From NCBI RefSeq assembly GCF_038002225.1, contig NZ_JBBOCA010000001.1, forward strand, positions 5,766,001 to 5,830,000: a stretch of 64,000 nt of DNA, given 5' to 3'. Below, in pieces: positions 346-22,050 of the stretch (positions are counted from its first letter, which is position 1; each line of letters begins with the position of its first letter). The notes under the pieces are model-generated. The model had not been told where the DNA came from and did no database searches. It saw only the letters and a list, made by a program, of their open reading frames with translations. Made by a program: the position numbers and the translations under genes. Source of the stretch: Paenibacillus sp. FSL R7-0204. Lineage in GTDB: Bacteria; Bacillota; Bacilli; Paenibacillales; Paenibacillaceae.

Positions 346-1014
346 TTACCCCTCAGCCTGCATCTTCAGGCCAGCTGAATTAGCCGCCTTAACCTCATCA
401 TCCGTTAGAGTGGTTGGAATACCTTGTTTTCTCAGTTTACTATACAGCCCACTCGGGCTGTTCGACAACATCTCCTGAACAGTCTGATTCCCTACTGCTG
501 CACTAGTTTGCTGCGCTGCTTTTTGGATCGCTTTACTTCCGGCTATTTCTGCTGCATCCTTTCCCACAGCTGATGTGACAGCTTTTCCTGTTATTTTGGC
601 TGCTATTTTTTCTGTTACTTGGATAGCACCTTTAACGCTAGATTTAACAAATGCGGCTTCACCAAACGTAGCAACGTTGAGGAGCAAGTTAGCAGAACCT
701 GCGCTTCTTTGCAAGAACGACTTATCTTTCCCAAAGGCCAGTTTGGCATCGTCACCAATCATTAAGTTGTAGGTATTTACAACTAAGTTCTTCGTTCCAT
801 TTTTTATTGAATTAAATACAGATCCGCTGGCAGTATTCTTTGCAGAAGACTTCACAGGTACAGGATCTTTCTTGACAGATGTTTTAGCTGCCTGGACAAC
901 TTGTTCCTCTTTCTTTGCTTTTTTTAGATCTACTGCCAAAACTGTATTTTTCTGCTGCAGCTTTGATATTGCAGCGGCGGCTGCACTTCCTGCTGCTGAT
1001 AATCCTGAAACCAC
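346..1014 (-). pseudogene. Orphan RHS pre-toxin module (duplicate of main RHS C-terminal region)
   Basis: This stretch encodes a near-identical copy of the RHS pre-toxin region (from the GSAAAAAISKL segment to MQAEG), with only about ten base differences over ~640 bp compared with about 1961-2600. It lacks the YD-repeat core, a signal peptide and a convincing ribosome site; the first possible start is a GTG at 1014 shortly downstream of an in-frame stop. It ends at a TAA directly after MQAEG, where a one-base change in a G run shifts out of the frame of the alternative tip. It sits downstream of the terminator of the RHS-immunity transcript, so it is probably silent. Orphan modules of this kind are known beside rhs and cdi loci and can recombine onto the main gene through the shared linker. 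Confidence 0.75.
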
Positions 1015-1138: not shown

Positions 1139-1173
1139 GAAAAAACCTTGAAAGGCACGAAGCCGATCAAGGT
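1139..1173 (-). terminator. Terminator after the immunity gene
   Basis: On the minus strand a 7-bp stem (ACCTTGA / TCAAGGT) is followed by a run of T. It lies 14 bp beyond the immunity stop codon and separates the operon from the orphan module. Confidence 0.65.
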
Positions 1174-1186: not shown

Positions 1187-1585
1187 TTATTCGTTATCTT
1201 CAACTACCGGAACAAAAGGAGATAAAAATAAATCTTCTTTTAGTTGAATATTACCACGGGCTAAAACGAGTACTCTAAAGTTATTATCGTACCCTTCAAT
1301 ATCTTCATCGTCCCTTGTATATAGTACTCCGTAAGAACCTGATGAATGGTCTGCGATGAATTGATATAGCTTAATTATTTCCTCTGCCTCGGTAGTTTTA
1401 CGATTCAAGAAGCCGCCCACAGAAAGATAATAATTACCATTAGAAGGGTAAACCTCCAGAAGCCCAGCACTCCAATTTAACTCTGAAATAAATTTTTGTA
1501 TATTATTTACAATCATTTCCAAATTGCCTGCATCAGCTTCTGTAGTTGTCTCATGGATTGTTGCCCAACCGTGAAATTCATACAT
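1187..1585 (-). CDS. Imm7-family immunity protein
   Basis: A 132-aa cytoplasmic protein starting MYEFHGWATIHE, with YGVLYTRDDED in the middle and VLARG then LSPFVPVVED near the end. This layout matches what I recall of the Imm7 family of polymorphic-toxin immunity proteins. The ATG at 1585 is preferred over the upstream GTG (1594) because AGGTGAGG precedes it and because the family begins at this Met. It starts 9 bp after the stop of the RHS toxin, the usual place for a cognate immunity gene, and is followed by a terminator. Its likely role is to bind and neutralise the C-terminal tip of the adjacent toxin, protecting producer cells from siblings. The pairing is inferred from position. Confidence 0.85.
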   Translation of the reverse strand: MYEFHGWATIHETTTEADAGNLEMIVNNIQKFISELNWSAGLLEVYPSNGNYYLSVGGFLNRKTTEAEEIIKLYQFIADHSSGSYGVLYTRDDEDIEGYDNNFRVLVLARGNIQLKEDLFLSPFVPVVEDNE

Positions 1586-1594
1586 TATCCTCAC

Positions 1595-7500: not shown

Positions 7501-10500
7501 AAATAATTTCAACAGGCTTATCAACAACATTGTATTGATATAACAGACCTATAGACTGCTCTGGATGAGTAGCATTATACCCTTCTCCATCGACATCTTT
7601 GATAAGGTTGCCCCTACCATCATATTCCTTGTAAGCAATGACCTCACGATTGGTTCCGTCAAAGGCAATAGTCTTTATTAACCGGTTCTCTGCATCATAT
7701 ATATTCTCAATGCCAGGAGCCTGTTCCATAGCAAGAGCAGAATATCTTGAATCCACAGTTTTTAGCAAATTGCCCATCGTATCATACTGATAACGGCTTG
7801 AATTCCCCAAAGGATCGGTTGTCCCAGTTGCGAAGCCTAATCCGTCGTAAGTATAAGAGGTTGTCCGCTCTGTTCCATCAATTACTGACGTCTCAGCAAT
7901 CAGATTGCCGGACTTGTCGTATTGATAACGGCTGATTCTAGGCCCCTTGTCATTAAAAGGCTTGGAGCTAGATACCTTAAGATTTCTATAATTGTACGTA
8001 TTCTCCTCAGTATCATAACCCGTACCATTGAATCGCCTCGTCTTCAGAAGGTTTCCTTCGAGATCAAATTCGTTTAAGGTCTGATAGGCCCCTCTTTCTA
8101 CAAGTGATCCGTCCTCCCCTTTTTCTTTGGATGATCCTGTCTCTGACGTTATGTTTCCGGCAAAATCATATTGATAATTCTGTACAATCTGTTTAGCGCC
8201 AGTTGAATCTGCGTATTCTACAGTCTTAGTTTTATTCCCGTTTGCATCATACTCGTTAGATGTGTGAGAACGGTTAGCAGCGTCCAGGCTGACATATTGA
8301 TCTGTCACTTGGTTAAGCGAATCATATGAAAAGGAGGTTATTGAAGAGTCCTTGTTAGCTCCTGCTGAATATAGCCCTTGCGTAAGTTTAATTCTGTTAT
8401 TCACCGCATCATATTGGCTATTTGTATAGAAATAATCCGAAGTTCCCGCCTGATAGATTTTTTGAATGGTGTTTCTACCCAATCCATCGTAGATCCACTC
8501 TGTGATTTTCCCGCCGGGAGCTTTCTCGGAGACCGGTTGCTCCATCGCGTTATAGCCATATTCTGTCGTGTTACCCAGTGCATCAGTGGCGCTAATCTTT
8601 CTTCCCAAGGCATCATAAGTATAAAGTGTAGTATGTTTGCCTTCGTCAGTGTCTGTTATGAGGTTGCCGACATAGTCATAAGTGAAGGTTGAGGCGTAAT
8701 ACGTCTGACGATCCGGCGTAACCTCTTGCTTGATCAATTGGCTCTCAAGGTCATAGTAGTACCTTTTACCATAGCCTTCTTCATTCGTAATCGTCATAAG
8801 CATAGGAAACTGGGGAGAAGAATTGATCTGATAATCAATTTTCACAGCTGCCCTAAGCGCCTTATCATTGTCATAGAAGGATTTCTCCACAATCTGCTGA
8901 TTGCTGTCGTAGGTATAGCGAGTACTGTGTCCATTACTATTCATTTCTTTAGTCAGATTGCCAAAAGCATCATATTGCAGGGAGGATAACCTCTCCCATG
9001 TACCTTGGCTATTGATGCTATGGTTCAGCAAATTCCCCTCAATATCATACTCATTCAGATACTTGTAATTTCCCGCATCCGTGTACTGTATCTTGAAGTT
9101 GGCATACGGGCTCTCCTGATATTCGTACTGCAGTGCCTTATTATCCGGCCGGATGTTCTTCAGTACGCGGCCTACTGCATCATATTGATACGATGTCTTG
9201 TTTCCATTCGCATCGATCTCGCTGACTATATTGCCGGTCTGCATATCATAGGCGTAGGTTTTGGCATAAGTCTTACCATCCGCCTGCTGATATTGTTTGG
9301 TCAGGTAAGCCCCTTTGGTATTAGTGCCATTGGCGTCGATGCCATATTCATAGTGAGTGGTGAAATCCTGTGAACGGTCATGGGCCGTTTTACGGATTAG
9401 ATTGCCATAGGAATCATAGGCGTAATCTGTGATTAACCAGGGATTCGCCGGATCATTTGTGGCTTTGCTCTCTTTGATTACGTTACCTTTACTATCCAGC
9501 TCATAATTGGTCTGAGCCGTTGTATTGGGGTTGAGCTTCCAGGTCTTCTGGGTCAGAATATGATATTTATTAATATCATAGGTAAATAGTTCGGTGTGTT
9601 CATTGTTCACCGGATAACCTTTGCTGTCACGATCGGCAATCGGTCCGGTATGACTGGTCATATTGCCGTACTCATCATAACGGTAGTTCTCAATGCTATG
9701 AACCGGCTCACCTGTAGCCTGCCCGCCAGCCACTTGATAGATAAGAGTCTCCTGTTTCTTGACCAGCTTCAGCTCATCATGCTCACTGGTAACGGTCTCC
9801 TTGTGATTCTTTCCCAGCTTCTCAGTGAGAATCATTTCCTGATTACCGTTGTATGTATATTTGACAGTGCTGCCGTTAACATCTGTAATGGTTGTGTAGT
9901 AACGGTATGTATCTTTAAGATAGGCCTTATCATCCTGCTTATAGTCTACCGTGCCGTACCCGTCAGCTTCATTGGTATAGGTGTAGGTCTGCTTGTTATA
10001 GGTATCGGTTACGAATTTATCCAGAAAGTTTGGTTTGGCAGGATCGAGCCCTTTCTTGATCAGATCCTTACTCTCAAAAATCTTTCTGTATTGCATACTG
10101 CCTTCATTCAGCCGTTTGGTGTAAGTGTTATATACATAGCTCTTCGCCTTATTGCTCTTCACTTCATCTACCAGTACAAGATTCTCGTAACGGGAATACG
10201 CAGAATATTTATCTTTATTGAAGTAGGTGAAGCCCAGATCAGGCTGCTCATACCAGAACATGAATTTCGGTTTCGCATCCGTGTCATATACCCTTTGCAG
10301 CCGGGTTCGTATGACATGCTTGGAATCATTAACGAGCGCCGCTGACTTGTCATACACAATACTTTTATCGCCCGGAAGATGAACAATCACTTGGAACTTA
10401 CCCTTTAGATCTCCGGAATCCGTATTATTGGGGCTTTGCGATGCGTTATAATAGTTGTTCGCATTTACAGGAGAATCAATGCTAATCGGGCCTACTGTGT

Positions 10501-11323
10501 AATTGAAATCCTCCTTGTATTCAATCGTGGTATCGCGGCCCACTGAATCCGTAATTTTGGAGATCAGTTTTTTGTTGATGGAATGACCATCCATATAATA
10601 ACTCAAGGACTCATACTGAAAATTAATAGTGTTGCCATACCGGTCCACGATTCCCAAGATCCGGCCGTCTTCGGCGAAATAGGTATTCTTCCCATCCTTT
10701 CCTGTCATTACATACTTGGAGGTTCCGTCTGCTTGTCCATTCTGATAAGCGGCAGTCTCACGGACTACCACATCTTTCACAGTCTGGCCCTCCGGCAAAA
10801 ATACATAGGCTCCGTCCAGATTCGCAGGCTTAAGACGGTATACATCTCCGCTGTCTGTATGCAAAAACTTATGGCTGGAGCCGTCCGAATTCACCTTCAC
10901 TTCAATATTCGGGAAGGAGAAGCGCATACCCATGCCGAGGTTATATCTATCCTCATAGAAGGAGGAGGTTTTGGCATAAGAGAAGGCTCTGTCTACCCAG
11001 GCTCCGTCTACATAATTCACTTCCATCTCTTGCACATTCGCTGTTTCATTCTTATAAATTCGTTTGAATTCAAGATCTAGTCCGTTCTTGCCAGGCAGGA
11101 CATAATCTGTCTGAGTAATGGTAAGTGAACCACTCTGAGGACTAATTTCGTCAATCGTTTCATTGGTTCTTAAATATGCCGGTGAGAGCATAGTATTGTA
11201 CTTTTGTTTGGGACCTACCAGATTGTTCAATTGATCCTGTAAGGTCTCGGCACTTGCTGCCGGTAAGAAAAACATCATCAAGATAAAAGAAGCCAATGAT
11301 ATTCGGATACATGCTTTCTTCAC
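1595..11323 (-). CDS. Secreted RHS/YD-repeat polymorphic toxin with nuclease-like tip
   Basis: A 3242-aa WapA-like protein. GTG start with GGGGG seven bases upstream; N-terminal signal peptide (residues 1-25, ending AASA). After an N-terminal beta domain come dozens of YD repeats (YDxxGN type) up to the RHS core signature GLYYLRARYYDPYIGRFLSED and DPTGH (about residue 2818). A Pro/Ala/Ser/Lys-rich linker (about 2820-2905) and a pre-toxin region (to about 3116) precede a ~125-residue tip with REFDAINDQYVGQSKP and YYHFEG. The tip resembles restriction-endonuclease-fold toxins (PD-(D/E)xK-like D...QxK arrangement), so nuclease activity is likely but unproven. RHS shells encapsulate and deliver the tip in contact-dependent competition. 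Last but one gene of the riboswitch-led operon, 25 bp after its neighbour and 9 bp before the immunity gene. Confidence 0.9.
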   Translation of the reverse strand: MKKACIRISLASFILMMFFLPAASAETLQDQLNNLVGPKQKYNTMLSPAYLRTNETIDEISPQSGSLTITQTDYVLPGKNGLDLEFKRIYKNETANVQEMEVNYVDGAWVDRAFSYAKTSSFYEDRYNLGMGMRFSFPNIEVKVNSDGSSHKFLHTDSGDVYRLKPANLDGAYVFLPEGQTVKDVVVRETAAYQNGQADGTSKYVMTGKDGKNTYFAEDGRILGIVDRYGNTINFQYESLSYYMDGHSINKKLISKITDSVGRDTTIEYKEDFNYTVGPISIDSPVNANNYYNASQSPNNTDSGDLKGKFQVIVHLPGDKSIVYDKSAALVNDSKHVIRTRLQRVYDTDAKPKFMFWYEQPDLGFTYFNKDKYSAYSRYENLVLVDEVKSNKAKSYVYNTYTKRLNEGSMQYRKIFESKDLIKKGLDPAKPNFLDKFVTDTYNKQTYTYTNEADGYGTVDYKQDDKAYLKDTYRYYTTITDVNGSTVKYTYNGNQEMILTEKLGKNHKETVTSEHDELKLVKKQETLIYQVAGGQATGEPVHSIENYRYDEYGNMTSHTGPIADRDSKGYPVNNEHTELFTYDINKYHILTQKTWKLNPNTTAQTNYELDSKGNVIKESKATNDPANPWLITDYAYDSYGNLIRKTAHDRSQDFTTHYEYGIDANGTNTKGAYLTKQYQQADGKTYAKTYAYDMQTGNIVSEIDANGNKTSYQYDAVGRVLKNIRPDNKALQYEYQESPYANFKIQYTDAGNYKYLNEYDIEGNLLNHSINSQGTWERLSSLQYDAFGNLTKEMNSNGHSTRYTYDSNQQIVEKSFYDNDKALRAAVKIDYQINSSPQFPMLMTITNEEGYGKRYYYDLESQLIKQEVTPDRQTYYASTFTYDYVGNLITDTDEGKHTTLYTYDALGRKISATDALGNTTEYGYNAMEQPVSEKAPGGKITEWIYDGLGRNTIQKIYQAGTSDYFYTNSQYDAVNNRIKLTQGLYSAGANKDSSITSFSYDSLNQVTDQYVSLDAANRSHTSNEYDANGNKTKTVEYADSTGAKQIVQNYQYDFAGNITSETGSSKEKGEDGSLVERGAYQTLNEFDLEGNLLKTRRFNGTGYDTEENTYNYRNLKVSSSKPFNDKGPRISRYQYDKSGNLIAETSVIDGTERTTSYTYDGLGFATGTTDPLGNSSRYQYDTMGNLLKTVDSRYSALAMEQAPGIENIYDAENRLIKTIAFDGTNREVIAYKEYDGRGNLIKDVDGEGYNATHPEQSIGLLYQYNVVDKPVEIISAQAAYDNKQQGIGKIGKQLIYDGSGNVLSETDELGHTTSYLYDLGGRLKQTTYADGSRTTVDYDLTGKWVTINTDKSGQQTKSYNTIFGSPYLIEYPDGTSESFRYSSQGELLESTDQNGKSIYYGYDLAGNQISKKEYIRADQTNTYYRFTLMKYDEAAKLLSTETFQLIVSNKNGAVTQTSMGDLTQQIYDKGGRVIQVTGPFGRESKQDYDRAGNVITTYQKSSDNNYDITRNSYDSRSRLTKSALLVKTADISAGFLPGAIFDNEYVDRLEAATTYTYSKNDQLLSQSDAKGNTTSFEYNYNKQLLKKTDAMKGSTLYQYDAAGNVLTETNSIGMQTRYEYDALDRVLRKSLPAADGGLAVTRYIYDLSGNLIREISPNQYKKELDSTNQVLSMKGMSYTYDKMNRRLSTVSPEGTVVEYLEYDAKGQMSKKVDGLRYSGNIGSSKGITYLYDGLGRLIKETNVLGDSKRYEYDVLDHLLARTDERGNTTSYEVNPDGTPAKIIYADGGIFKYTFDKQGRKTSETNPLGAVTTTSYTSFGKEKVVKDPYGYTVENKYDLNGNLVSVKDQADSITLFNYDAGNRLIDKKSPLALDESRNVIYAVESFHYDAAGNMTKKIVLGSKEDSANRETTYIYFDNNLLKGIIDNSGASSSMEYDKNGNLIKSEKLRDSDLKDVEQYEYDSQNRMVKRIGWLDKTTVEGYSTLPNLADLLDSSYPNKIMQITTYSYDVLGNKIQETDPRANGFLSSDSANRKAYTINYTYDAMNRVEKVIRALGSTESVRQYSYDAAGNKISDKDERGYVTKYAYDPVNRITVVTDPEGNKFTTAYDLAGNKIADTNAKGYSMSYTYDKLNRVSLTIDPYGTVVGKKIYDAKGNMVKSIDAKGYAAGETDGSRYGITYHYDLGNRVTAAIDPVLASKNGTSKFTTVYQYNIYGNLIQKTDALGNSIRYEYDNAGRLTQVTDALGVEVSYSYDRMGNKQSMKDGRGKVTQYRYGSFGVLQSVTDAGNATISYTYDLALNKQRMIDRQGNSTLYLYSNQNLLTEMRVVETGDKINFSYDEAGNRTGMNDVSGTYSYTYNSQNQLLQISKDSKVQIKYTYDVIGNVESVTDILGYTTTYQYDKSSRMARVDYDGKETAYSYDKNGNRTMVQYEDGLKEVYTYDLNNRLLTLTNKRNNGSEISSYRYTYDDAGRQITKTDSFGSTAYSYDDAGRIKQVEAPGKTTVYAYDRAGNRQSMLETYTSLQPSSYIFPDTKQALQYKLKKSEYQYSSSNQLMKLEERMSDTTGKELLLKTVDYLFDKNGNELSQRTAYTQPHTTAMHQSTGGDTYEAQTKEINSLIEKVTQVYDGFNRLTKAVKVKAGDRTTVDYVYNGDGLRVKKTVSSAKAGNIAKETNYVYDRQHVILEMDGGSKLSARYIRGINYIARMNQAKAYTYYLFNGHGDVVQTVTSAGEVQNQYDYDVFGNPVLSIESYSESIRYAGEYYDGETGLYYLRARYYDPYIGRFLSEDSYWGEDNNPLSLNLYTYANNDPIQYIDPTGHKATASSIQSQINRNDAAADRQEHLFLAKQKASTPPPKQEPPAPTKPAQNSKKSASSAPANNNKATPPATVTKPPATSNSGSTSSSRPSASGSAAAAAISKLQQKNTVLAVDLKKAKKEEQVVQAAKTSVKKDPVPVKSSAKNTASGSVFNSIKNGTKNLVVNTYNLMIGDDAKLAFGKDKSFLQRSAGSANLLLNVATFGEAAFVKSSVKGAIQVTEKIAAKITGKAVTSAVVKDAAEIAGSKAIQKAAQQTSAAVGNQTVQEMLSNSPSGLYSKLRKQGIPTTLTDDEVKAANSAGLKMQAEGAGKAGRYSGDLVVVNKPDAAADALAERIGGQSRVKFSNDPASREFDAINDQYVGQSKPALHTVNKSVRDQMKATFEAAQETGRRVYYHFEGQPAQSVIDKLNEYSSRYGIKVLIDTKPLK

Positions 11324-11348: not shown

Positions 11349-12143
11349 TTATTGCCCGTACTTTTCCGTATAGGTCTGGGCCATGATCATTTCATCTGAA
11401 AAGCCTTGCGCAACTCTAGTAACAACAACTTTGGCAGACTCTCCAAGCTTCTGTGCCAGTACAAAAGCATGTGTAACCTGCTGCTCGGAAAGCTTACCAT
11501 CCCCAGTATATTTACGAACTTCTTCCTCTGTTATCTGAACCCTCGGAAATGGATTTCCGCTGTACAATACCTTCTCCCGTTCAAAAACACTGCTCCATTT
11601 ACCACTTTTCAGCTTCTCATTCAATAAATCTCCAAACAGCTTGCCGGTTACGAAAGATATCCTGTCCGCGATCATAATATCGTCAGAGGTTGCTCCTTGC
11701 ACCTGCATTAGTAGCTCAAGTTCTTCTGATTCGAAGGATCTGGGGATAAACTCTTTATGTGTCTCACGATATTGTGTGAAAAGTGTCTCCCAGGACTTGC
11801 CTACGCTTCTGGCCTCAAGCATTGCGGTCCAATCATTCACATTACCGAAATTGTGGTATAAGAAGTCATACGCAGTTAATACCGCAGCACGGCTATAACC
11901 GCCAGCAACCAGCTCTTCAATCTGCTTACGGTATGTCTCTTGAACACTGAATTCTTTCAGGAACTGATCATATGAACTCTGGACCACTTCAGACTGTACA
12001 GGTCCAGCGTTCATTCCATGACTGTCTTCAGTCTCCGCTTTAGGAGTAACGGCCACTTTGGCATAGGCTAATACCCCTGCCTGGAACACCAATACCAGAA
12101 TGATTATAAAAGCGGAAATCCGAAGTACCTTGCGTTTGTTCAT
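11349..12143 (-). CDS. Membrane-anchored helical-repeat protein, function unknown (264 aa)
   Basis: I do not recognise this family. One N-terminal hydrophobic segment (residues ~8-28) acts as signal or anchor; the remainder looks exported and largely helical. The motif G-[FAY]-[ST]-[DE]-[DE]-x-[IM]-M-x-A recurs: GATSDDIMIAD and GFSDEMIMAQTY, with a weaker GYSRAAVLTAYDF. Related copies occur in the next gene upstream, so the two are probably diverged relatives. The start has AGAGGAG nine bases upstream. It sits between that relative (14-bp gap) and the RHS toxin (25-bp gap), which suggests a role in export, assembly or surface retention of the toxin or of the large fibronectin-III proteins. 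This role is inference from position alone. Confidence 0.7.
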   Translation of the reverse strand: MNKRKVLRISAFIIILVLVFQAGVLAYAKVAVTPKAETEDSHGMNAGPVQSEVVQSSYDQFLKEFSVQETYRKQIEELVAGGYSRAAVLTAYDFLYHNFGNVNDWTAMLEARSVGKSWETLFTQYRETHKEFIPRSFESEELELLMQVQGATSDDIMIADRISFVTGKLFGDLLNEKLKSGKWSSVFEREKVLYSGNPFPRVQITEEEVRKYTGDGKLSEQQVTHAFVLAQKLGESAKVVVTRVAQGFSDEMIMAQTYTEKYGQ

Positions 12144-12157: not shown

Positions 12158-13096
12158 CTATTTGTAATTAGGATTCATTGCCTGAATTTCTTGTCTGACC
12201 GCTTCACCCGGATTTTCCGGCCTCACATCCTGCACCGTAGGCGGGTTAATATCCGGAATCAGCGATTCCTTATCTTCGGTTACAAAATTATTGGGGTCAG
12301 GTTTCCTCTCTGCAACTTCAAGATCGGGTGCTGCCTTCCCCCGCTGTAATTGCTCCAGCATCCTCTTCTCAAGAGAGTCCAGCGTTACAATCTCACTCTC
12401 TTTTAGAGTAATGGTTTGTTGTTCTTTATTTTCCTGATACTGTTTGGGATCAGTAATGTAGTCCTTGAGATTCAGCCCAATCTGAAGAGACAGTATATAT
12501 TCATTCATTACAGCCTCCATGGAACCGAACTCCTGTTGCAAGGTAAGCAGGAGCGTAACCGCCTCTCCCTCATTAAATTGCTCGTTAATTGTTACGTACG
12601 CAGACTCTACATCCTCCTCAGCCGAGCCGGAGAGTTCTGAGGATGCTTCCGGCTTTTCCACAATTGATGCTGCACTGCTGACAACTTCTTTTAACTGCTG
12701 CATAGTTCTCTCCGTGAGCATTTTAGCTTCCATGATCTCGTCATCCTGGAAGCCTTTCTGACGAAGCTCCTTAAGTAATTCCTCACCCAGACCAGCCTCA
12801 TGAAGCAGATTTGAACGCCCCTGCTTGTCTTCCGTATTGTTCGCCGGAAGCTGCTGCTTCAGAGTCTCCGTAATTTCATTCCATGAAGAACCTGATTTTT
12901 TCATTTCCATAATCTTTACTGCCGCAACTCCGCTCAGGTTAGAGAGCTCTGCAGCCGTCTGTTCATCTTGTTGCTGGGAAGACTCTTGTACTGCTGAATC
13001 CCGGTTAAGTCTTGGAAAGGTCACAATCGCTGCTTCAGACAGCAACGCCACTATGATTGCTATGGATATATATCTGTATTTTCGCTTGCGGATCAT
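12158..13096 (-). CDS. Membrane-anchored helical-repeat protein, function unknown (312 aa)
   Basis: Unrecognised family. The ATG at 13096 is chosen because GAAGGAG lies seven bases before it, whereas the ATG two codons upstream overlaps the ribosome site. An N-terminal hydrophobic segment follows RKRKYRY. The body is charged, Gln/Glu-rich and predicted helical, with GFQDDEIMEAKML and FNEGEAVTLLLTLQQEFG, motifs shared with the 264-aa protein downstream. The C-terminal ~50 residues are Pro-rich and probably unstructured (INPPTVQDVRPENPGEAV). Gaps of 22 bp upstream and 14 bp downstream place it inside the six-gene operon. An accessory role for the surface proteins or RHS toxin is plausible but not demonstrated. 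Confidence 0.7.
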   Translation of the reverse strand: MIRKRKYRYISIAIIVALLSEAAIVTFPRLNRDSAVQESSQQQDEQTAAELSNLSGVAAVKIMEMKKSGSSWNEITETLKQQLPANNTEDKQGRSNLLHEAGLGEELLKELRQKGFQDDEIMEAKMLTERTMQQLKEVVSSAASIVEKPEASSELSGSAEEDVESAYVTINEQFNEGEAVTLLLTLQQEFGSMEAVMNEYILSLQIGLNLKDYITDPKQYQENKEQQTITLKESEIVTLDSLEKRMLEQLQRGKAAPDLEVAERKPDPNNFVTEDKESLIPDINPPTVQDVRPENPGEAVRQEIQAMNPNYK

Positions 13097-13118
13097 TATC
13101 ATTCTCCTTCAATATCAT

Positions 13119-16100
13119 TCAATCTACCGTAACTTTCACGTTGCTATCACCCGTTATTTTCGACTTGAAGGTGAGCGTAGCAATCTCTCCAGACCAAGAG
13201 GTTCCGGGTACAACATTCTGATCGACAGAATAAGTGATTTTCCCAGGGGTATATGAAGCAGTTAAATTAGAACCGGCAATCCTTCCGCTAGAAAGATCTC
13301 TGGCTGGAGTGAAATCATATAAGTCGATTAATTCAAGCTCATCCGGATTATAGGTCACCACAAATTCCAGTTCACTGAAATCCTGTACATTTTGAGCCAG
13401 CAGCGTCAGACTTGCTTCCTTATCCTTCTTGACTTTAAGCACGTATTCCGGACTGGTAGTACTCTTCTGTAGAGAAGGGCTCCAGGCAGTCACTCCTGAT
13501 GTATTTTTTGCTCTTACCCGGTACGTATGAGCGGTTCCAGAAGTAAGTTCGCTATGTTGATAGGTTATATTGTTACCGACATCAATCGTCTTTCCATCTA
13601 CTTCAAGCTGGTAGCCATTCGCCCCGTCCATCTTCTCCCAGCGCAATTCAATCGAGTTGTTTTGGGCAAATCCATCTATTTTGGAAGGGGAGTCAGGCAG
13701 GTTGGGAAGTGTAGAGAGGGCTAATACTGCCACCCAGTCTCCACGTTCATTTCCTTGCTTCACTCTAATTTTATAGAGATGGTATTCTTCTGCTTTCAGT
13801 CCGGTATGATTGTAAATCGTGTCCGCAGCGTTATCCAATAATTTGCCGTCTACTTCTATTTCATATCTTGCATTCGCGGCAACCGTATCCCAGGACAGGG
13901 TAATAGACTTATTCGTCACTACCGCTACCACATTAGTTAAAGATTCCGTATTCATTCCAACAGGCATGGTAGTCATGGCTATCGGTTTGGACCATTCACT
14001 TGTTCCGCTAATATTAGCGGCTCTGATTCTATAGGTATGTTTGGAATCTGCAGTGAGCTGGTCATGCACGAACAGATTCTCCTTCACAGTGGTTATAGTT
14101 CCGCCATCCACTTCAATGTCGTAAGTATCCGTATGAGGAACATTGTGCCAGGATGCTGTAATCTGCCCTTCATCCGCAGTGGTCATTATGTTCGTAGGTA
14201 CATCCGGTATTTCCGGATGGGTGGTTACATCCAGAGGAGAACTCCACTTACTTTTGCCTCCTATGTTGACAGCGCGAATTCTGTAGGTATGACCGCTCAG
14301 AGCATCTAATCCTTCATGCGTATAGCTAGTCATCTGCTTGTTGTCGATAATTAGCCCGTCCACTTCAATCTCGTAGCCGCTGGCCCGCTCCATCTCCTCC
14401 CACTTCACAGTTACCGTATGAATATCCTGCACTGCAGATATCTTCGTAGGGGTCTCTGGCGGATTAGGCCAAGTCTGTTGTATAGCGGGGGTGCTCCATT
14501 CACTCACCCCTCCTGTGTTACCGGCTCTTACACGATACGTATGATCCGTTGAAGCTTCCAGATCTTTGTGCGTGAAGGAGTTAAGGGTGCCGTTATCCGT
14601 CACAACTCCATCGGCTTCCACTTCATACCGCGTAGCATGAGGAACCAAATCCCAGGTTAATGAAACGAACTTCTGCGATGGGACTGTCAATAGATTGAGT
14701 GGTGAAGCCGGTGGTTCAGGCAGGGTCATTTGAGTAAAAGCCTGGCTCCAGCTACTCGTACCTCCCGGATTGATAATTCTAACTCTATAGGTGTGCTGAG
14801 TATTAGGTAATAATCCATTGTGCGTATAGGAAGTAGAAGTTCCATTATTGATAATGGCTCCACCTGCCTCTACCTCATAACCTAAGGCACCCGCTGATGG
14901 AGGCCATGCAAGCTTAATCCATTGCTGTGAAGCTTCTGCAGTTATTCCGCCGGGTGCAGCGGCTAATGTAGTTCCGCTTGCCGGCCCTCCGAACCCTGTC
15001 TCTACCCCTTCGTTATTTCTTGCTTTTACCTGGAAGGAGTAAGAAGTATTTGCTGTTAAACCATTAATCACTACTGTCTTATTAGACGGGGTAAACCATA
15101 CAGGCGAAGAACTGAGAGTGCCGGAAGGAGTAGCATATGCAGTACCCATTTGAATCAAATATTGGGTTGAAGCAGCATTCTGATCATGAAGCTGCATGAT
15201 TAAGGATGTTTCACCATTTTGCTGAACAGATATTGCCGGTACTTGTGCTTTCGTATAAACATTCTGCTCATGGACCGCACTATTCCCCACTTTATCTCTG
15301 GCTTCAATCCTGGTATAAAATGCAGTATTTGGCATTAATCCTGTTGCAGTAAAGCTTGGCTGTGTAGTCCAGCCGCTCGACTGGCTTCCGACTGTGTAAT
15401 GATATGGAACGTTATCCAATCCTGATATGGAATCTGCGGCTGTTCCCGATATCTGAACCTGTGAGTCGGAAGAAATAATATTGATATTTCCAATTACCGG
15501 AGGAGATTTATCTACAAAGATGGTTACCGAATTCTGGGTGGTGACTTTTCCGTCATTGGCTGTAAAGCGGATGGTATGGCTGCCTTCAGATAAAGCTGCT
15601 ATGTTCAATGGACTAAAAGATACGTTTTGGGTTGTAGCTGTATTGGTTATCGTCTTACTTTCCCTTGCAGCTGCCTCTGAATCTATATAATATTTCAGCT
15701 CCAGCGCATCACCGTTCGAATCTGATACCCCTATTACAGGAATGAACAGGGAGCTTGGGCCAATTTGCTGACCGTTGGGTGTGGGTATGGTAATTGTAGG
15801 GGCTGCATTGGAGGTTAAATTTTGTGCTGGGAGATATTCAGATAGTGAGTTTCTCCATCCATTAGGGGGGTCATTCACTTCGTGTTGATTATCTCCTGCA
15901 CTTACCAAAACACTCACCTCTGATGGAATTTCACCAGTCAGCTGCTCCTCCCAAGGATAGCTAGGATAGGCAACTAAATCACCTTCATTAGTTATGAATT
16001 TGTTATTTGACTCACCCGTAGTCAAGTTTTCTACGCGTTTATGCGTATAGGACCCTACTCTTGAACTGCTGCTCGAGTTACTCATATAAACAGCTATGTC

Positions 16101-16445
16101 CAGATATCTAGTACGTTGCATGTCACGAAACCAATAGGTTCTGGAACCTGAGGTCATAATGGCCGCCTTATCCAAAGCAATATCGTAACTCATTTTTCTT
16201 GAAGATAAATCAAAGCGTATGTTTTTGACCGTAATTCCCGGCATGTCCAATGTAATTTCGGCAATATCACCCATGGCAGGAACCCATTCAGCCGTTTTTA
16301 TGAAACCATCGAAGTGAAGATCTGCAAAGCTGATAATATTAGACTCCCCTGCTGCTTTAACCTGTGATCCGCCTGGAAATAGAATTAATGTAACCATTAC
16401 ACAAACACATAAAATAGATATCCATCTGTTCAGCATATCCTTCAT
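13119..16445 (-). CDS. Secreted fibronectin type III protein with cohesin-like C-terminus (1108 aa)
   Basis: Signal peptide (residues 1-32, ending VKAA). Residues ~33-215 form an unrecognised beta-rich N-terminal domain, followed by cadherin/Ig-like modules (PTITIPTPNG...; DKSPPVIGNI). About eight fibronectin-III modules follow (about 330-1000), shown by the recurring W-x-x-V...Y-x-I/V-E-V-D-G...H-T-Y-R-V-R-A...G-x-S-x-W-S pattern. The last ~105 residues (VTYNPDELELIDLY, then PGKITYSV) look like a cohesin-type domain. No LPXTG, SLH or transmembrane anchor is visible. The start has AGGAGAGG just upstream. It lies 25 bp after its larger relative, whose architecture it partly shares, so the two probably act together as an extracellular adhesin or matrix scaffold. 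Confidence 0.8.
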   Translation of the reverse strand: MKDMLNRWISILCVCVMVTLILFPGGSQVKAAGESNIISFADLHFDGFIKTAEWVPAMGDIAEITLDMPGITVKNIRFDLSSRKMSYDIALDKAAIMTSGSRTYWFRDMQRTRYLDIAVYMSNSSSSSRVGSYTHKRVENLTTGESNNKFITNEGDLVAYPSYPWEEQLTGEIPSEVSVLVSAGDNQHEVNDPPNGWRNSLSEYLPAQNLTSNAAPTITIPTPNGQQIGPSSLFIPVIGVSDSNGDALELKYYIDSEAAARESKTITNTATTQNVSFSPLNIAALSEGSHTIRFTANDGKVTTQNSVTIFVDKSPPVIGNINIISSDSQVQISGTAADSISGLDNVPYHYTVGSQSSGWTTQPSFTATGLMPNTAFYTRIEARDKVGNSAVHEQNVYTKAQVPAISVQQNGETSLIMQLHDQNAASTQYLIQMGTAYATPSGTLSSSPVWFTPSNKTVVINGLTANTSYSFQVKARNNEGVETGFGGPASGTTLAAAPGGITAEASQQWIKLAWPPSAGALGYEVEAGGAIINNGTSTSYTHNGLLPNTQHTYRVRIINPGGTSSWSQAFTQMTLPEPPASPLNLLTVPSQKFVSLTWDLVPHATRYEVEADGVVTDNGTLNSFTHKDLEASTDHTYRVRAGNTGGVSEWSTPAIQQTWPNPPETPTKISAVQDIHTVTVKWEEMERASGYEIEVDGLIIDNKQMTSYTHEGLDALSGHTYRIRAVNIGGKSKWSSPLDVTTHPEIPDVPTNIMTTADEGQITASWHNVPHTDTYDIEVDGGTITTVKENLFVHDQLTADSKHTYRIRAANISGTSEWSKPIAMTTMPVGMNTESLTNVVAVVTNKSITLSWDTVAANARYEIEVDGKLLDNAADTIYNHTGLKAEEYHLYKIRVKQGNERGDWVAVLALSTLPNLPDSPSKIDGFAQNNSIELRWEKMDGANGYQLEVDGKTIDVGNNITYQHSELTSGTAHTYRVRAKNTSGVTAWSPSLQKSTTSPEYVLKVKKDKEASLTLLAQNVQDFSELEFVVTYNPDELELIDLYDFTPARDLSSGRIAGSNLTASYTPGKITYSVDQNVVPGTSWSGEIATLTFKSKITGDSNVKVTVD

Positions 16446-16470: not shown

Positions 16471-19400
16471 CTACTCTATGGTATAGGTTACTTTAGTAAA
16501 TTGATTAGTCAGGGCAGTGAAGATAATAGTGTTCATCGCCGCCTTATTGCTCATTTGTACGCTGAAGACTATTTTCCCCGGTTCAAACTGGATTACATGG
16601 ATTGGAGTTCCTGCAATACTGCCAGTCCCAAGTTCCATTTCCGGAGTCTCTGCACGCAGATCCATGACCTCAAGATCCTTGGCATTATAGGTGACTGTAA
16701 CTCTGCGCTCGGATTTGTCACTTTTATAAGGGATGATCATTACAAAATTAAGCTGAGAGTCCTTTTCCGGCTTGATCGTTACTGCAGGAGTCGTTGTTTT
16801 CTTCAAAAGCTCGGACCAGTCGCTGGTGGCTCCTGCATTCTTAGCCCGGACACGATAAGCGTGCATTGTGTTGGGTTCAAGGCCACTGTGTGTGTATTCC
16901 AGCTGATTGGAATTCGAAATCACTTGTCCATCTACTTCCAAATCATAGCCGGATGCACCATTCACTGAATCCCAGACAAGCTGGACCGAATTCACAGTAA
17001 CTTCGCCTCTAAGGTTCTTAGGTACCTCCGGTGCTGTAACCCCGGTGACAATCGTAGTCCATTCACTCCAATCACTGACGAGCTGAGTATTCTTGGCACG
17101 TATCCTGTAATTGTGCTTGGTGTTAGGCAACAAACCGGTATGCGTGAAAGCAATCTTGCTGCCATTGTCAATCATTGTGCCGTCCGCTTCAATTTCGTAG
17201 CCGGTAGCACCCTTAACGGAATCCCAGGATAATCGGATTTGATTGCTCTTGGTCTCCGTCTTTACATTTCCCGGAATCCCGAGCACGGTTGAAATCGTCA
17301 GCGGTTCGCTCCATTCTCCAAGGAAGCTTCCCTGCTTCGCTCTGACCCGATAATTATGCCAGGAATAGGGTTCCAATCCAGAATGCTTATAGGATAACGA
17401 TTCTTCATTATTCAGAACCTCGCCATCTACCAGGAGATCATAGCCAGTTGCGCTCTCTACCTTGTCCCAAGTAAGTTCAATACTTGTATTCTTGGCTAAT
17501 GCCTTGAGATTAGAGGGTTTGCCGAAGGTAGTGGTTGCAGATACGTATCCGCTCCACTCGGCTGCACCAGCCACATTTACAGCTCTTACCCTATATTTGT
17601 GCGTGGAGAAGGGCACTAGCTTCTTATGGATATAGATGTTATCCGTAACATTTCGAATCGTTGCCCCATCCAATTCAATATCGTAACTTAGCGCACCTGC
17701 AACTATATCCCAAGTTATTGTAATTTCGTTGCTCTTCGCTGAAGTCTGAATATTAGCAGGAACGCCCGCATGAGTGGAGTAAACAATGGTTTTCGTCCAG
17801 CTTCCGACTCTCTCTTCATTCTTCGCCCGCACTCTGTAGGTATGCTCTGAATTCAATGCTAGCTGTGAATGAGTGAATTCAAGCTTCAATTCATTATCCA
17901 GCACATCACCATCTACCTCGATGTCATACCCTGTGGCCCCGGCAACTGGGTCCCAAGCTACATGCACAGAGCTTCCTTCCACTTGTGCTGTAAGATTCTG
18001 CGGAACCCCAGGCAGAGTATGCACTGTGATGGTATCGCTCCATTCACTGATTCCATCATCGTTCTTAGCTCGTACACGATAGCTATGCTTGCTGTTAGAT
18101 TGGAGACTTCCATGTATAAACGAATTATCGGTAATGTTATTACTAACAACTCCATCTATTTCCAAATCATAGGAAATGGCTCCTGATACAGCATCCCAGT
18201 GCAGATGAATGGACTGATCATCAGCAATCCCCTGCAGCTTGGAAGGGACTCCCACCAGAGTAGTCTTCGTAACGACTTCGCTCCACACTCCCGCTCCGCT
18301 GCTGTTCACGGCTCGGATACGGAATACTTTTGGCATGTTCGGATTCAGATCAGTCTCCTGATAAGTTAGCACGGCTCCTATATTCTTCGTGCTGTTATTA
18401 ACCTCTATTTCATAACTAGTGGCTCCAATCACCGGCTCCCATTCCAGAGTAATGGTATGGCTTGTTGCATTCATTTGAATATTCAGCGGTGCAGCCGGCA
18501 AGGTCCAATAAGATGAAGGGATTGACCACTCCCCTTTGATGTCACCGCTGATTGCCCGGATACGGTAGAAATGCTCAGTTCCCGGACTAAGCCCCCCCTT
18601 GAGAAAATCAGGTTCACTGCCGAGGACGGTAACCTCCTTATCAAATTCCACCTCATATCCGTCTGCATTAAACAAAGAAGGCCAACTGAGGGTAATCGTT
18701 GTATCTGTTGCACTCGCATTTACTGCAGGTTTAGAAAAAGGTCTTAAAGATACAGAGGGCACCACTTCACGAATCTGCTGCCCGCTCTCCCAGAATAAGC
18801 TGGCCTGAGGATTCCCCATATCATTAGCGTATTCCATCTTCAGGTCATATTTTTTACCGGCTTCAAGCTGGATGGTGCCTTGCTCCACATGCTGCTTCGT
18901 TGTCCAGGCATCTACCAGGAGCTGATCATTCACCCAGAGTCTGACTCCACCTGACGTTCTGGCGGAAAAGGTATATTGATCTGTATAGTTAGGTTGAATT
19001 TTCCCTGTCCATCTTACTGAAAAATGCTGGTCTGCTATTCCCGGCACACCCAGAACAGGTTGGCCAGCCAAAGAAATAGATTCATCCACCTTCACGGCCT
19101 TCTTGCCCGTAAAATCATTGCCGCTGTAATACTCAGCCTTAAGGCCTGACAGAACATACTTCAATAATGTACGTCCTGCTTGCTCATTCCCCGTGTGAAT
19201 TACAGGTCTTTGATTCGAGATGACATTACCGCCAACTGCAAATAATCCGCCTGTATTGATGTTCAGATGATTATTCACACTGACATTGTCCCGGACGAAC
19301 AAATCACCCTTGGTTACATTCAGCTCTGCTTTTGAATTATTGGACACCACTTCTCCAATAGACATTTCTTCGTCTACATTCATAGTTACCATAGTATTGA

Positions 19401-20589
19401 TATTCATATTGCCTTGTACTACTATCCGTTTTGCGGATAGATCGAGAGAGCCATTGTTATAAACCAAAGAACCTGCAAACAATTCATTATCTACATGAAC
19501 CTTGGAATTATTATTCAAATGCACAGTCCCCTGTACCCATAGGTTACCAAGATTCTCATCTGGTGCAGGGTTGATAACATTAACATCCAACGCTGTATTT
19601 GCATTTAATCCTCCACGGAGGATTAACGACCCGTACACCGTTACATTCAGATTCCGGTTCGTATTCATACCGTCGACGATTAAAATGACAGGCTGTTCTG
19701 CGCTTCCGAACGTCACGCTTGATTCTAAATTCAATTGTCCGACTGCAATAATGGCAGGCTTCTTGCCGCTGGAGCGGATAGAGCTTTGTATAGCTTCTAT
19801 ATCCGAATTTCCTATTGCCACCGCATGTTGGTTAATCTGCTGTATTTGTTGTTCAATAGATTCTATTTGTCCGCGGATATGGCGGGAGATTTCTACCTGC
19901 AGGCCGTTCACCCTGATAAAAGGCGGAGCGTTGTGTATGTTGGTCATGCTTCCCGATAGAAGAACTTTGTCACCAGCAACCTTATTGGGTTCAAAGGGCA
20001 GGCGTATTTGAGGCGGGATCAAGGCGGGAGTGTATGTATTAACCAATGAAAGTTCTATGCTATTGAGAGCAGTCTCAATGCCAGTAGCATTGATTTGACT
20101 TATAGTCAGTCTTCCATCTTCGACAGCAACCTTCTTCTTAACCGTTCTATGCTGCCCTGCTTCAAGAGTGAGTCCCTCCATCACTTTGATATTCTCAACT
20201 GAAAGCGAGTTGTTGCTGCTATATACAGAGTCACCTACGGTTACTGAGACTTCATAAGTACCATTGTCTAGTGCAATTTCCCATTTTCCATCCGGATGGA
20301 TTCGTGTCAGGCTGCTTATGCCGGAGTCATCGTATGTATCTCTTGAGACTGTTGCATCGGTATGATCCATATTCCAGCCGTAGGAGTATTGGTTTTTGAC
20401 GCTAAAAACGGCTCCAGAATCTGCAAGCTCTCCGTCCTGTACAGGAGCATCTTCGGGCTGAAACCGGATCCTGAGAATACTGTCCTGTGCGGAAATCTTC
20501 ATCCCTGAGAATTCTACAAAAGGTGCAAGAAGTTGAGCCAGAATGATAAAACACAGTACCTTACATATAAAGCTTTTCCTATTTTTCAT
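16471..20589 (-). CDS. Secreted PA14/fibronectin-III adhesin-like protein with cohesin-like C-terminus (1372 aa)
   Basis: First gene after the cyclic-di-GMP riboswitch. The ATG at 20589 (MKNRKSFICK) has GGAGG six bases upstream; an in-frame start farther upstream would lie inside the leader and is rejected. A signal peptide is followed by a carbohydrate-binding-like beta domain (~35-185, RIRFQPEDAPVQDG). Next is a region of short repeated Asn/Val beta strands (~250-470) reminiscent of a beta-solenoid or polymer-forming domain. A PA14 domain (~480-610, LKAEYYSGNDFTGKK to ASLFWES) and about eight fibronectin-III repeats (~620-1290) follow, ending in a cohesin-like domain (VTYNAKDLEVMDLR). It is probably a large sugar-binding surface or biofilm-matrix protein. 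No covalent cell-wall anchor motif is seen, so retention is unexplained. Confidence 0.82.
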   Translation of the reverse strand: MKNRKSFICKVLCFIILAQLLAPFVEFSGMKISAQDSILRIRFQPEDAPVQDGELADSGAVFSVKNQYSYGWNMDHTDATVSRDTYDDSGISSLTRIHPDGKWEIALDNGTYEVSVTVGDSVYSSNNSLSVENIKVMEGLTLEAGQHRTVKKKVAVEDGRLTISQINATGIETALNSIELSLVNTYTPALIPPQIRLPFEPNKVAGDKVLLSGSMTNIHNAPPFIRVNGLQVEISRHIRGQIESIEQQIQQINQHAVAIGNSDIEAIQSSIRSSGKKPAIIAVGQLNLESSVTFGSAEQPVILIVDGMNTNRNLNVTVYGSLILRGGLNANTALDVNVINPAPDENLGNLWVQGTVHLNNNSKVHVDNELFAGSLVYNNGSLDLSAKRIVVQGNMNINTMVTMNVDEEMSIGEVVSNNSKAELNVTKGDLFVRDNVSVNNHLNINTGGLFAVGGNVISNQRPVIHTGNEQAGRTLLKYVLSGLKAEYYSGNDFTGKKAVKVDESISLAGQPVLGVPGIADQHFSVRWTGKIQPNYTDQYTFSARTSGGVRLWVNDQLLVDAWTTKQHVEQGTIQLEAGKKYDLKMEYANDMGNPQASLFWESGQQIREVVPSVSLRPFSKPAVNASATDTTITLSWPSLFNADGYEVEFDKEVTVLGSEPDFLKGGLSPGTEHFYRIRAISGDIKGEWSIPSSYWTLPAAPLNIQMNATSHTITLEWEPVIGATSYEIEVNNSTKNIGAVLTYQETDLNPNMPKVFRIRAVNSSGAGVWSEVVTKTTLVGVPSKLQGIADDQSIHLHWDAVSGAISYDLEIDGVVSNNITDNSFIHGSLQSNSKHSYRVRAKNDDGISEWSDTITVHTLPGVPQNLTAQVEGSSVHVAWDPVAGATGYDIEVDGDVLDNELKLEFTHSQLALNSEHTYRVRAKNEERVGSWTKTIVYSTHAGVPANIQTSAKSNEITITWDIVAGALSYDIELDGATIRNVTDNIYIHKKLVPFSTHKYRVRAVNVAGAAEWSGYVSATTTFGKPSNLKALAKNTSIELTWDKVESATGYDLLVDGEVLNNEESLSYKHSGLEPYSWHNYRVRAKQGSFLGEWSEPLTISTVLGIPGNVKTETKSNQIRLSWDSVKGATGYEIEADGTMIDNGSKIAFTHTGLLPNTKHNYRIRAKNTQLVSDWSEWTTIVTGVTAPEVPKNLRGEVTVNSVQLVWDSVNGASGYDLEVDGQVISNSNQLEYTHSGLEPNTMHAYRVRAKNAGATSDWSELLKKTTTPAVTIKPEKDSQLNFVMIIPYKSDKSERRVTVTYNAKDLEVMDLRAETPEMELGTGSIAGTPIHVIQFEPGKIVFSVQMSNKAAMNTIIFTALTNQFTKVTYTIE

Positions 20590-20631
20590 AAAAGACCTCC
20601 GCTCAATTACAATTCCTTTAAAAAAGGACGC

Positions 20632-20663
20632 AAAAAAACCACCGGAAAGAGCGGCCCGGCTGC
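20632..20663 (-). terminator. Riboswitch-associated terminator
   Basis: On the minus strand GCAGCCGG can pair with CCGGTGG (one mismatch, some G-U pairs), followed by TTTTTTT. Its 5' arm is the 3' strand of the aptamer, so folding of the two should be mutually exclusive. If that is right, cyclic-di-GMP binding would favour read-through, an ON switch. This is inference from pairing by eye. Confidence 0.55.
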
Positions 20664-20742
20664 CATTCACAGAGGGGTGTCCCCCTCCCTGTGATAAGGC
20701 CCGTGGCTTTGCGTCCCTGACTTTCGTACAGGTTTGCCTTTT
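20650..20742 (-). promoter_or_regulatory. Cyclic-di-GMP-I (GEMM) riboswitch
   Basis: Minus-strand leader with the class I signature: GGCAAACC, a P2 hairpin capped by a GAAA tetraloop, the core GGGACGCAAAGCCACGGGCC, a variable hairpin (CACAG...CTGTG), then AATGGCAGCCGGGCCGC as the receptor arm. The order and core match the Vibrio Vc2 aptamer. It lies about 60 bp ahead of the start of the 1372-aa surface protein and therefore of the whole six-gene run ending in the RHS toxin and immunity genes. Confidence 0.88.
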
Positions 20743-20832
20743 TAGTTCTAATGGTTAATTCAAGAAAAATCATGTGTAATTCACTTCAATTACAATCTGT
20801 ACTTACCTTGGCAATAATACCCTATATTTGAA

Positions 20833-22050
20833 TCATATAATATTGTTATTTTTGTGAACATTTGAACTAAGCAATCCCCTCACCACCACCCAGCTCCCCA
20901 GCGGTGCGGCACCCAGCAGCAGCATGAGCAAAGTAAGCGTCTGCGGAGACTGGTCCAGTGACAGCACGGCGATGAAGATCAGCAGGCCGAGGAGGCGGCC
21001 GCTCATCAGGCTAAGCTCCCTGAGCACTACCAGCTCCACGCGTTTGCCGGCGCTCTCCTCGGACACTCCCATAAGGTCGAAGCTGGTGGATAGCATCGGC
21101 AGCATGTAGAGCGGCAGGCAGAGAGAGGTCCCTATCCCCATGATGAGGAGGGTCGTAAAGTTCACCTTCCACAGCAGCGGAAGAAGGAAGGCGATGAGCA
21201 GCAGACTGCCTGCCAGCATACCGCCGAGGCGGGCACGGGGCTTGAACCATCTGCCGGCCGCATAATAGCTGATCAGGGAGACGGCCGAGGTCAGCAGGGC
21301 GAACTGTCCCAGTTTGCTCTCCTCCTGTGCTGCAATGTAGACGAGCAGACCGATCAGGAAGGAGAATACGCCTTCCCGGATGCCCTGGAACACGAGCGCA
21401 GCCGCAACTGGCCGCCAAGGACTGCCGGAGCGGGTAAGCTCGCGCCAGGGCTCCAGCCAGAGATAGGCTTCTCCGCGCGGCCGTTTGCGCAGGCCGAAGC
21501 TGAGCACAGCAGCCGCCCCATAGATACATAGCGACAGTATGAATACCATGCGGTAGCCTTGTCCGCCTTGCCAGCGGGAGATCATCCAGCCGGACACCCA
21601 GGGTCCGGCAATTCCCGTCAGGGAACCCAGCAAGCCCATCCACCCGTTATAGAAATCGCGGTTCCTTACGTCCGTAATCTCGAAGAAAACAATATTGAAC
21701 GCCAGCCAGTACAGCCCGATGGATAGCCCGAGGACCCCGCCCAGCGGCCAAATGTAATGAATCGCGTCGCCCTGCAGCCACAGCACCAGCAAATAAAAAA
21801 AGCCCGATACGGCAATTCCCAGCCGTAGGGCATTCATTTTGTTATGTTCTTTCACCCACTTGCCGCCCAGCCAAAAGCTGAGACCCACGGCAAGCTGCTG
21901 GGCCACGGTAAACCAGCCGATCATGGCGAAGTTCTGCCGGCTTTTCCACAGATACACGTTAAGGAACGTCCCTGCAAGCACTGTAGCCAGCAGGTATAGC
22001 CCGCCTACAGCCAGCAGCAGCACCGCCTGTCCCCGTTCTGAACCTCTCAT
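20833..22050 (-). CDS. MFS transporter
   Basis: A 405-aa polytopic protein with about 11-12 hydrophobic segments from residue 8 to ~395 and a central basic loop (LRKRPRGEAYLWLEPWRELTRSGS) typical of the two six-helix halves of the major facilitator superfamily. GKWVKEHNK after the second helix resembles the family's loop 2-3. Substrate is unknown. The ATG has GGGAGGG five bases upstream. No clear terminator is seen after the stop, which lies about 90 bp before the riboswitch leader on the same strand, so some read-through into that leader is possible. Base composition is clearly more GC-rich than the operon downstream. Confidence 0.8.
   Translation of the reverse strand: MRGSERGQAVLLLAVGGLYLLATVLAGTFLNVYLWKSRQNFAMIGWFTVAQQLAVGLSFWLGGKWVKEHNKMNALRLGIAVSGFFYLLVLWLQGDAIHYIWPLGGVLGLSIGLYWLAFNIVFFEITDVRNRDFYNGWMGLLGSLTGIAGPWVSGWMISRWQGGQGYRMVFILSLCIYGAAAVLSFGLRKRPRGEAYLWLEPWRELTRSGSPWRPVAAALVFQGIREGVFSFLIGLLVYIAAQEESKLGQFALLTSAVSLISYYAAGRWFKPRARLGGMLAGSLLLIAFLLPLLWKVNFTTLLIMGIGTSLCLPLYMLPMLSTSFDLMGVSEESAGKRVELVVLRELSLMSGRLLGLLIFIAVLSLDQSPQTLTLLMLLLGAAPLGSWVVVRGLLSSNVHKNNNII

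Follow-up and report, generated by a model that had tools for sequence, protein, structure and literature searches.

The locus described here raises the question of whether a single cyclic-di-GMP riboswitch could control both surface proteins and a toxin directed at neighboring cells, and, if so, in which direction. RHS proteins with variable C-termini and accompanying immunity genes act as weapons between bacteria. Such a pair lies at the end of a long gene series in the 64,000-nucleotide stretch of Paenibacillus sp. FSL R7-0204 DNA that was analyzed (hereafter, the window).

Riboswitch aptamer and operon genes

The first-pass annotation of the window had called a class I cyclic-di-GMP aptamer at 20632-20742 and named a covariance-model search as the check. 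This search identified a GEMM-I aptamer (RF01051, c-di-GMP-I) that runs from 20748 to 20647 on the minus strand, with a score of 65.3 bits against a gathering cutoff of 35, a match to model positions 1-87 of 87 and an E value of 1.6e-10 for the whole window. The identity and the site of the call were thus correct, but its span missed six bases at the 5' end and included the first U-run of the adjoining tail. The strand had not been given; the whole switch and operon lie on the minus strand. The features of the leader are as follows.

20807..20858, minus strand: conserved AT-rich block 5' of the aptamer (TTCACA ... TATTATTRCCA), from the alignment of eight leaders
20647..20748, minus strand: GEMM-I (c-di-GMP-I) riboswitch aptamer, kept in seven of seven testable relatives
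20700..20717, minus strand: aptamer core GGGACGCAAAGCCACGGG, a strand that the tail could capture, identical in eight of eight aligned leaders
20651..20664, minus strand: 3' strand of aptamer helix P1 (GGCAGCCGGGCCGC), 93-100% identical in seven relatives
20620..20650, minus strand: expression-platform tail of 31 nt, with a core-complementary strand at 20626-20645

The first stem is closed by a GNRA tetraloop, CGAAAG in all eight leaders, as the first-pass reading of a GAAA loop had it. All eight also carry a G (AAGGCAAACC) at what would be Vc2 position 20, where a G would point to specificity for c-di-GMP over c-GAMP. The aptamer of one relative, G111, was assigned to RF03167 (c-di-GMP-I-GGC), a family of the same clan, and scored 61.1 bits with RF01051. 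The leader RNA probably senses the biofilm signal cyclic-di-GMP.

The genome (7.71 Mb) contains eight c-di-GMP-I aptamers, the other seven of which are at other loci. By eye, one of these leaders (L047) shows a hairpin and U-run overlapping the 3' end of the aptamer, before a gene for a 953-aa protein, and another (L043) contains a tandem aptamer pair before a gene for a 269-aa protein. The AT-rich block at the present locus is perhaps a promoter or operator; a sigma-70 scan found no convincing promoter within it, and yielded 10 sigma-70-like matches in 20000-23500 on both strands versus 2.6 in shuffled sequence.

The genes 3' of the aptamer and the elements at the end of the operon are listed below in the order of transcription.

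16471..20589, minus strand: gene 1, 1372 aa, PA14 and repeated fn3 domains (Pfam)
13119..16445, minus strand: gene 2, 1108 aa, repeated fn3 domains (Pfam)
12158..13102, minus strand: gene 3, 314 aa, N-terminal hydrophobic helix, without known family
11349..12143, minus strand: gene 4, 264 aa, N-terminal hydrophobic helix and all-helical domain, without known family
1595..11323, minus strand: gene 5, RHS/YD-repeat protein, 3242 aa (PF05593, E = 8.1e-156; TIGR03696)
1616..1927, minus strand: Tox-REase-3, the C-terminal toxin domain of gene 5, residues 3133-3236 (PF15647, E = 5.5e-19)
1187..1585, minus strand: gene 6, Imm7 immunity protein (PF15585, E = 8.7e-40)
1140..1173, minus strand: intrinsic terminator 3' of the immunity gene, hairpin and U6 (fold z-score -5.53, -13.4 kcal/mol)
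346..1014, minus strand: orphan RHS C-terminal fragment (displaced cassette) with an RHS pre-toxin repeat, beyond the terminator and outside the operon proper

The intergenic gaps are, in order, 25, 16, 14, 25 and, before the immunity gene, 9 bp, and the series extends over approximately 19.6 kb up to the terminator at 1140-1173; six co-directional genes with gaps of 9-25 bp over 19 kb had been described in the first-pass annotation, and these measurements agree with it. Its RHS toxin and immunity gene were likewise recovered, as Pfam matches to RHS repeats, Tox-REase-3 and Imm7. The aptamer and the gene content, like the conservation and the mutual exclusion described below, were established by computation.

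Genes 1 and 2 both begin with a hydrophobic segment (by eye), and gene 1 is predicted to encode a surface or secreted protein. The last ~105 aa of the two proteins are related to each other, with about 30% identity in alignment. An impression on reading that these C-termini are cohesin-like was unsupported, the best PDB profile match having an E value of 0.11. Gene 3 gave no Pfam or NCBIfam match at E ≤ 0.001; 25 homologues were found in a set of 5.8 billion proteins, in which scoring was limited to the 8000 candidates with the most words in common. All homologues with a species in their name belong to Paenibacillus, and one is named for a compost metagenome. The structure model of this protein is helical and of low confidence (mean pLDDT of 62.7). 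Gene 4 also lacks a Pfam or NCBIfam family at E ≤ 0.001, and its AlphaFold model is all-helical (mean pLDDT of 77.0), with 69 matches in the PDB at E ≤ 10 and none at E ≤ 0.001.

The protein encoded by gene 5 contains an RHS-associated core (TIGR03696, 78.3 bits against a cutoff of 32.5), and its N-terminus resembles a signal peptide by eye. The Imm7 gene is located directly 3' of the RHS gene, and its reading frame is also open from a GTG at 1594; Tox-REase-3 and Imm7 are listed together in the portion of PMC3482391 consulted. Elsewhere in the window, an ordinary T-box leader (RF00230, 97.9 bits) is present at 43792-44080 on the minus strand, directly 5' of pheS and pheT.

Conservation of the switch-operon pairing and exchange of toxins

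Gene 3 was detected in 9 of 100 congeneric genomes, that of the window included, and a family of long RHS proteins was found in the same nine, with 78-100% identity over the N-terminus; all RHS N-terminus matches outside this family showed 42% identity or less. The order of genes 1-5 is kept in all eight relatives, two of whose loci are partial (the G086 contig ends inside the RHS gene and the G025 contig starts inside gene 1). Gaps in the relatives are 11-32 bp, except that 106 bp separate gene 1 from gene 2 in G060; the value for the same gap in G111 is unreliable, extrapolation gave some start codons that are not real starts (in G119, G060, G111 and G025), and the gene 1 entry for G025 is a cross-match to gene 2.

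The aptamer is present in all seven relatives that have the leader on the contig, and lies 9.3-9.5 kb 5' of the RHS gene in eight of the nine members of the long RHS family (window included), the contig of the ninth, G025, being without the leader. Another G025 contig (C36) carries an aptamer and was considered as the missing leader, but tblastn found no operon proteins on it. The RHS N-terminus gave 70 matches in 39 genomes; six of these matches come from three genes, each split into two pieces (G020, G085, G117). A same-strand aptamer within 20 kb upstream was found for eight matches, all of the long RHS family, and for none of the 61 other RHS matches, some of which are on shorter contigs; in this count of distances, 130 rows and 32 of 139 were processed by script and the remainder by eye. 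An aptamer located 33 kb 5' of the RHS gene in G117 was treated as unrelated on the sole ground of distance. For the two other RHS clusters of the window's genome, no Rfam match was found in the ~20 kb around each. A general association of GEMM aptamers with RHS genes in Paenibacillus was rejected on these results.

Given that eight of nine family members have the aptamer versus none of the 61 other matches, the linkage is a property of this operon family. It is kept even in the divergent G060 and G111, most of whose operon proteins are 49-64% identical to those of the window (78% for the G111 RHS protein).

Complete RHS proteins are available from the window and six relatives. All seven share homology as far as the RHS core, and four of them to about residue 3127, after which their C-termini are all different. 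Two displaced cassettes of G114 match toxins of other loci: one, located 3' of the operon, shares 97% identity with the toxin of the window, and the other shares 96% identity with that of G087. Among the RHS C-termini of the six relatives, one had a Pfam match above cutoff (NTP_transf_2, G060) and five had none. Toxin cassettes are thus exchanged beneath a fixed switch. Behind the operon of the window (1-1014, minus strand; also L041, 13945-14423), a pre-toxin repeat whose reading frame stops is followed by a region 47-49% identical to the active toxin end of G115.

Expression platform, direction of control and extent of the transcript

The tail contains CCGGUGGUUUUUUUGCGUCC followed by UUUUUU, and its two U-runs (U1, 20632-20638; U2, 20620-20625) make it a candidate dual terminator. 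In the window, the tail can pair with the core GGGACGCAAAGCCACGGG at -25.9 kcal/mol, and none of 1000 dinucleotide shuffles paired as well. The corresponding numbers of shuffles per 1000 were 3 for G114, 10 for G087, 3 for G115, 2 for G086, 0 for G119, 119 for G060 and 5 for G111. The core:tail duplex amounted to -20.5 to -25.9 kcal/mol in seven of the eight operon leaders, compared with -16.1 kcal/mol at best elsewhere, and that of G060 (-12.7 kcal/mol) was not apart from other GEMM-I leaders. The comparison comprised 45 GEMM-I leaders from other Paenibacillus loci, of which 44 had a valid core: 38 kept from 40 hand-chosen leaders of eight other genomes, and seven from the window's genome. 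Two leaders were dropped (L111, wrong side; L112, core pattern absent), the value for L004 is meaningless because its core was mis-picked, L005 is the window's own leader, and for the tandem aptamer pairs L109 and L117 the downstream aptamer alone was scored.

The probability of P1 fell from 0.63-0.95 before the tail to 0.04-0.11 at the second U-run in seven of eight leaders; the values for G060 were 0.86 and 0.84, respectively. The cost of holding P1 was 1.4-2.1 kcal/mol in the seven leaders other than G060, so that P1 would be poised and ligand binding could tip the balance. Five relatives have a tail 90-97% identical to that of the window, and identity drops to 87% in G111 and to 74% in G060; the values were 93-100% for the aptamer strands, 32-89% for the spacer to the Shine-Dalgarno (SD) site, 52-89% for the region 5' of the aptamer and 20-87% for the distal P3 loop. 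The core is invariant in all leaders, and compensatory changes are therefore not visible; five leaders have one A-U to A.C mismatch in the tail helix, and the G060 helix has more breaks than the others.

The whole leader folded better than its shuffles (z-score of -2.34). The isolated 61-nt tail region did not (z-score of 0.25, with 119 of 200 shuffles as good), and a terminator scan around the leader was at chance level, with four sites found versus 3.7 expected. The hairpin on the 3' arm of the aptamer (the P1 3' strand) was weak, at -7.7 kcal/mol, and at -4.2 kcal/mol in G119 and -1.2 kcal/mol in G060. What survives of the overlapping terminator proposed in the first-pass annotation is accordingly a tail pairing that requires aptamer strands rather than a strong 3'-arm hairpin. 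The ON control that it had predicted is supported in seven of eight leaders, in which the aptamer and the tail pairing exclude each other, with the difference that the main competitor is the core-complementary tail and not mainly that hairpin.

Since each of the two candidate terminator pairings draws on strands of the aptamer, a terminator and a bound aptamer would exclude each other, and an ON switch is therefore the best reading. Without ligand, the leader tail would capture the GGGACGCAAAGCCAC core together with the strands of P1, and RNA polymerase would halt at one of the two U-runs. Binding of c-di-GMP would lock P1 and the core and leave the tail free, and transcription would read through the two fn3 proteins, the two small anchored helical proteins, the RHS carrier and the immunity gene, to 1140-1173. 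We infer the ligand response and its direction in this way, and consider it likely that a class I c-di-GMP riboswitch, acting by premature transcription termination, turns on one long operon.

Alternatively, the aptamer might bind c-di-GMP without switching in vivo, the U-runs serving only to attenuate as in Bc1 of Bacillus thuringiensis, or it might act as an OFF switch. Bc1 has two terminators and was unresponsive in its native host (PMC11218506, in the part available), the functional class I switches of Clostridioides difficile are uniformly OFF according to the excerpt of PMC6366702, the G060 platform looks weak and, as noted, the isolated tail folds at chance level. The second Bc1 terminator, T2, stays intact in the presence of ligand, however, whereas both pairings here require aptamer strands, and the scan of 20000-23500 revealed no terminator-like site between the aptamer and the start codon that was independent of the aptamer 3' strand. 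We regard this alternative as unlikely, and OFF control was weighed and found less supported than ON.

With regard to the extent of the ON-controlled transcript, the tight gaps, the gene order in eight of eight relatives, the lack of terminator-like sites in the gaps of the window and the terminator after the Imm7 gene make one operon that includes the RHS and immunity genes well supported by the sequence. For the terminator at 1140-1173, none of 200 shuffles folded as well. A scan 3' of the immunity gene at seven loci detected a terminator in four (the window's own, G087, G115 and G060) and none in G114, G119 and G111.

A narrower regulon is nevertheless conceivable, in which the riboswitch governs the surface proteins alone (genes 1-2, perhaps 3-4) and the RHS and immunity genes are expressed mainly from an internal promoter. 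Polarity is likely over an operon 19 kb long, and promoter-like matches are present inside genes; their number in 1-20000 is at chance level, however (41 versus 41.8 expected, both strands). Terminator-like matches in the same region numbered 11 versus 16.6 expected on both strands, and none of those on the minus strand fell in an intergenic gap. In G060 (L068), the 106 bp that separate gene 1 from gene 2 contain a strong hairpin followed by TATTTT, a possible internal attenuator; this hairpin and short U-run would favor a separate promoter for the RHS gene, and the other relatives, with gaps of 14-32 bp, showed no such hairpin. Set against the narrower regulon are also the gaps flanking the RHS gene, of 25 and 9 bp, and the co-occurrence of the RHS family with gene 3, the two being found in precisely the same 9 genomes out of 100. 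We judge it to be quite unlikely.

Translational control, with the aptamer gating the SD site of gene 1, is very improbable and was also found less supported than ON termination: although another GEMM-I leader of the genome (L043) has a start codon ~14 nt past the aptamer, the class I switches of Vibrio cholerae act otherwise than by termination (PMC6366702, excerpt), and forcing P1 lowered SD accessibility somewhat in four of eight leaders (from 0.64 to 0.51 in the window's own, 0.71 to 0.59 in G114, 0.47 to 0.38 in G115 and 0.40 to 0.15 in G111), it left accessibility unchanged in G087, G119 and G060 and raised it from 0.27 to 0.55 in G086, and it is the tail with its two U-runs that is conserved and not the spacer to the SD site.

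Relation to known systems and implications

Among the full-text matches listed for the open-licence PMC literature, no paper linked a c-di-GMP riboswitch to an RHS toxin. The closest regulatory parallel is Bc2 of B. thuringiensis, a class I ON switch of a Gram-positive bacterium in which an anti-terminator forms on c-di-GMP binding and which controls a surface adhesin, cap. The text of PMC4933901 covered describes one adhesin gene and no toxin, whereas the operon here has six genes, including a polymorphic RHS toxin and its immunity gene; set against Bc2, the core-pairing tail is a feature of the present Paenibacillus leader. In Bc1 of the Bacillus cereus group, a class I aptamer is likewise joined to a single platform that contains two candidate terminators, but there T2, intact with ligand, masks the response, and the gene controlled encodes a chemotaxis receptor (PMC11218506, excerpt). 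The pilM riboswitch of Geobacter is also a transcriptional ON switch with mutually exclusive aptamer and terminator folds; it senses c-GAMP, forms its terminator by combining the 3' strand of the aptamer with strands further downstream, and controls other genes (PMC9262584, excerpt). A platform whose conserved tail strand is complementary to the ligand-binding core was not found described elsewhere, and appears to be a variant new here.

The WapA protein has N-terminal cell-wall-binding repeats. Against Pfam at E ≤ 0.001, the gene 5 protein (3242 aa) matched RHS_repeat and Tox-REase-3 alone, and the WapA N-terminal repeats were not found. The WapA-WapI system of Bacillus subtilis resembles the present one in its exported RHS protein, its strain-variable C-terminal toxin and the immunity gene directly downstream, but according to the available portion of PMC8321402, WapA is active under non-biofilm conditions, inhibited by matrix and repressed by DegS-DegU. 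No c-di-GMP-I match was obtained in any of 14 control genomes, B. subtilis among them. By analogy, the product of gene 5 may work like WapA, yet we do not class it as WapA.

In Vibrio, contact-dependent killing also lies downstream of a step that depends on c-di-GMP, that of TfoY; that route is indirect, through a regulator, is favored at low c-di-GMP and leads to a Gram-negative T6SS (PMC6618264, excerpt). Bacterial teneurin-like proteins, for which a Paenibacillus example has been named, share the large YD-shell, the variable toxic C-termini and the adjacent immunity gene (PMC13018210), and the main text of that paper mentions neither riboswitches nor c-di-GMP. Unlike teneurin-like proteins, the RHS protein showed no FN-plug, NHL or TTR family in Pfam at E ≤ 0.001. 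The parts of the locus are thus known (GEMM-I, fn3 surface proteins, RHS and Imm), whereas their combination and the platform were not found described. A class I switch directly before a polymorphic toxin operon, predicted to be ON, would be wired differently from WapA or the Vibrio T6SS.

At high c-di-GMP, in the sessile state, the surface proteins and the contact-type RHS toxin would be produced together, with the antidote on the same transcript. Since the pairing of switch and operon is kept in related species, our analysis suggests that settling and attacking neighbors are switched on together, and the toxin's role would tie contact-dependent killing to the biofilm state. As a tentative proposal, to which we give somewhat less than even weight, the locus encodes a c-di-GMP-licensed and adhesin-assisted RHS weapon: genes 3 and 4 would form a display or delivery device for the 3250-aa carrier, the terminator strand would capture the core, and the same biofilm signal would govern whichever cassette had entered the last gene by recombination.

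For the deployment of RHS toxins by Gram-positive bacteria in biofilms, the conserved switch would represent a direct and testable link between the sessile state and killing of neighbors. Genes 3 and 4 would be new candidate proteins for RHS display, and exchangeable toxins would inherit one fixed regulator.
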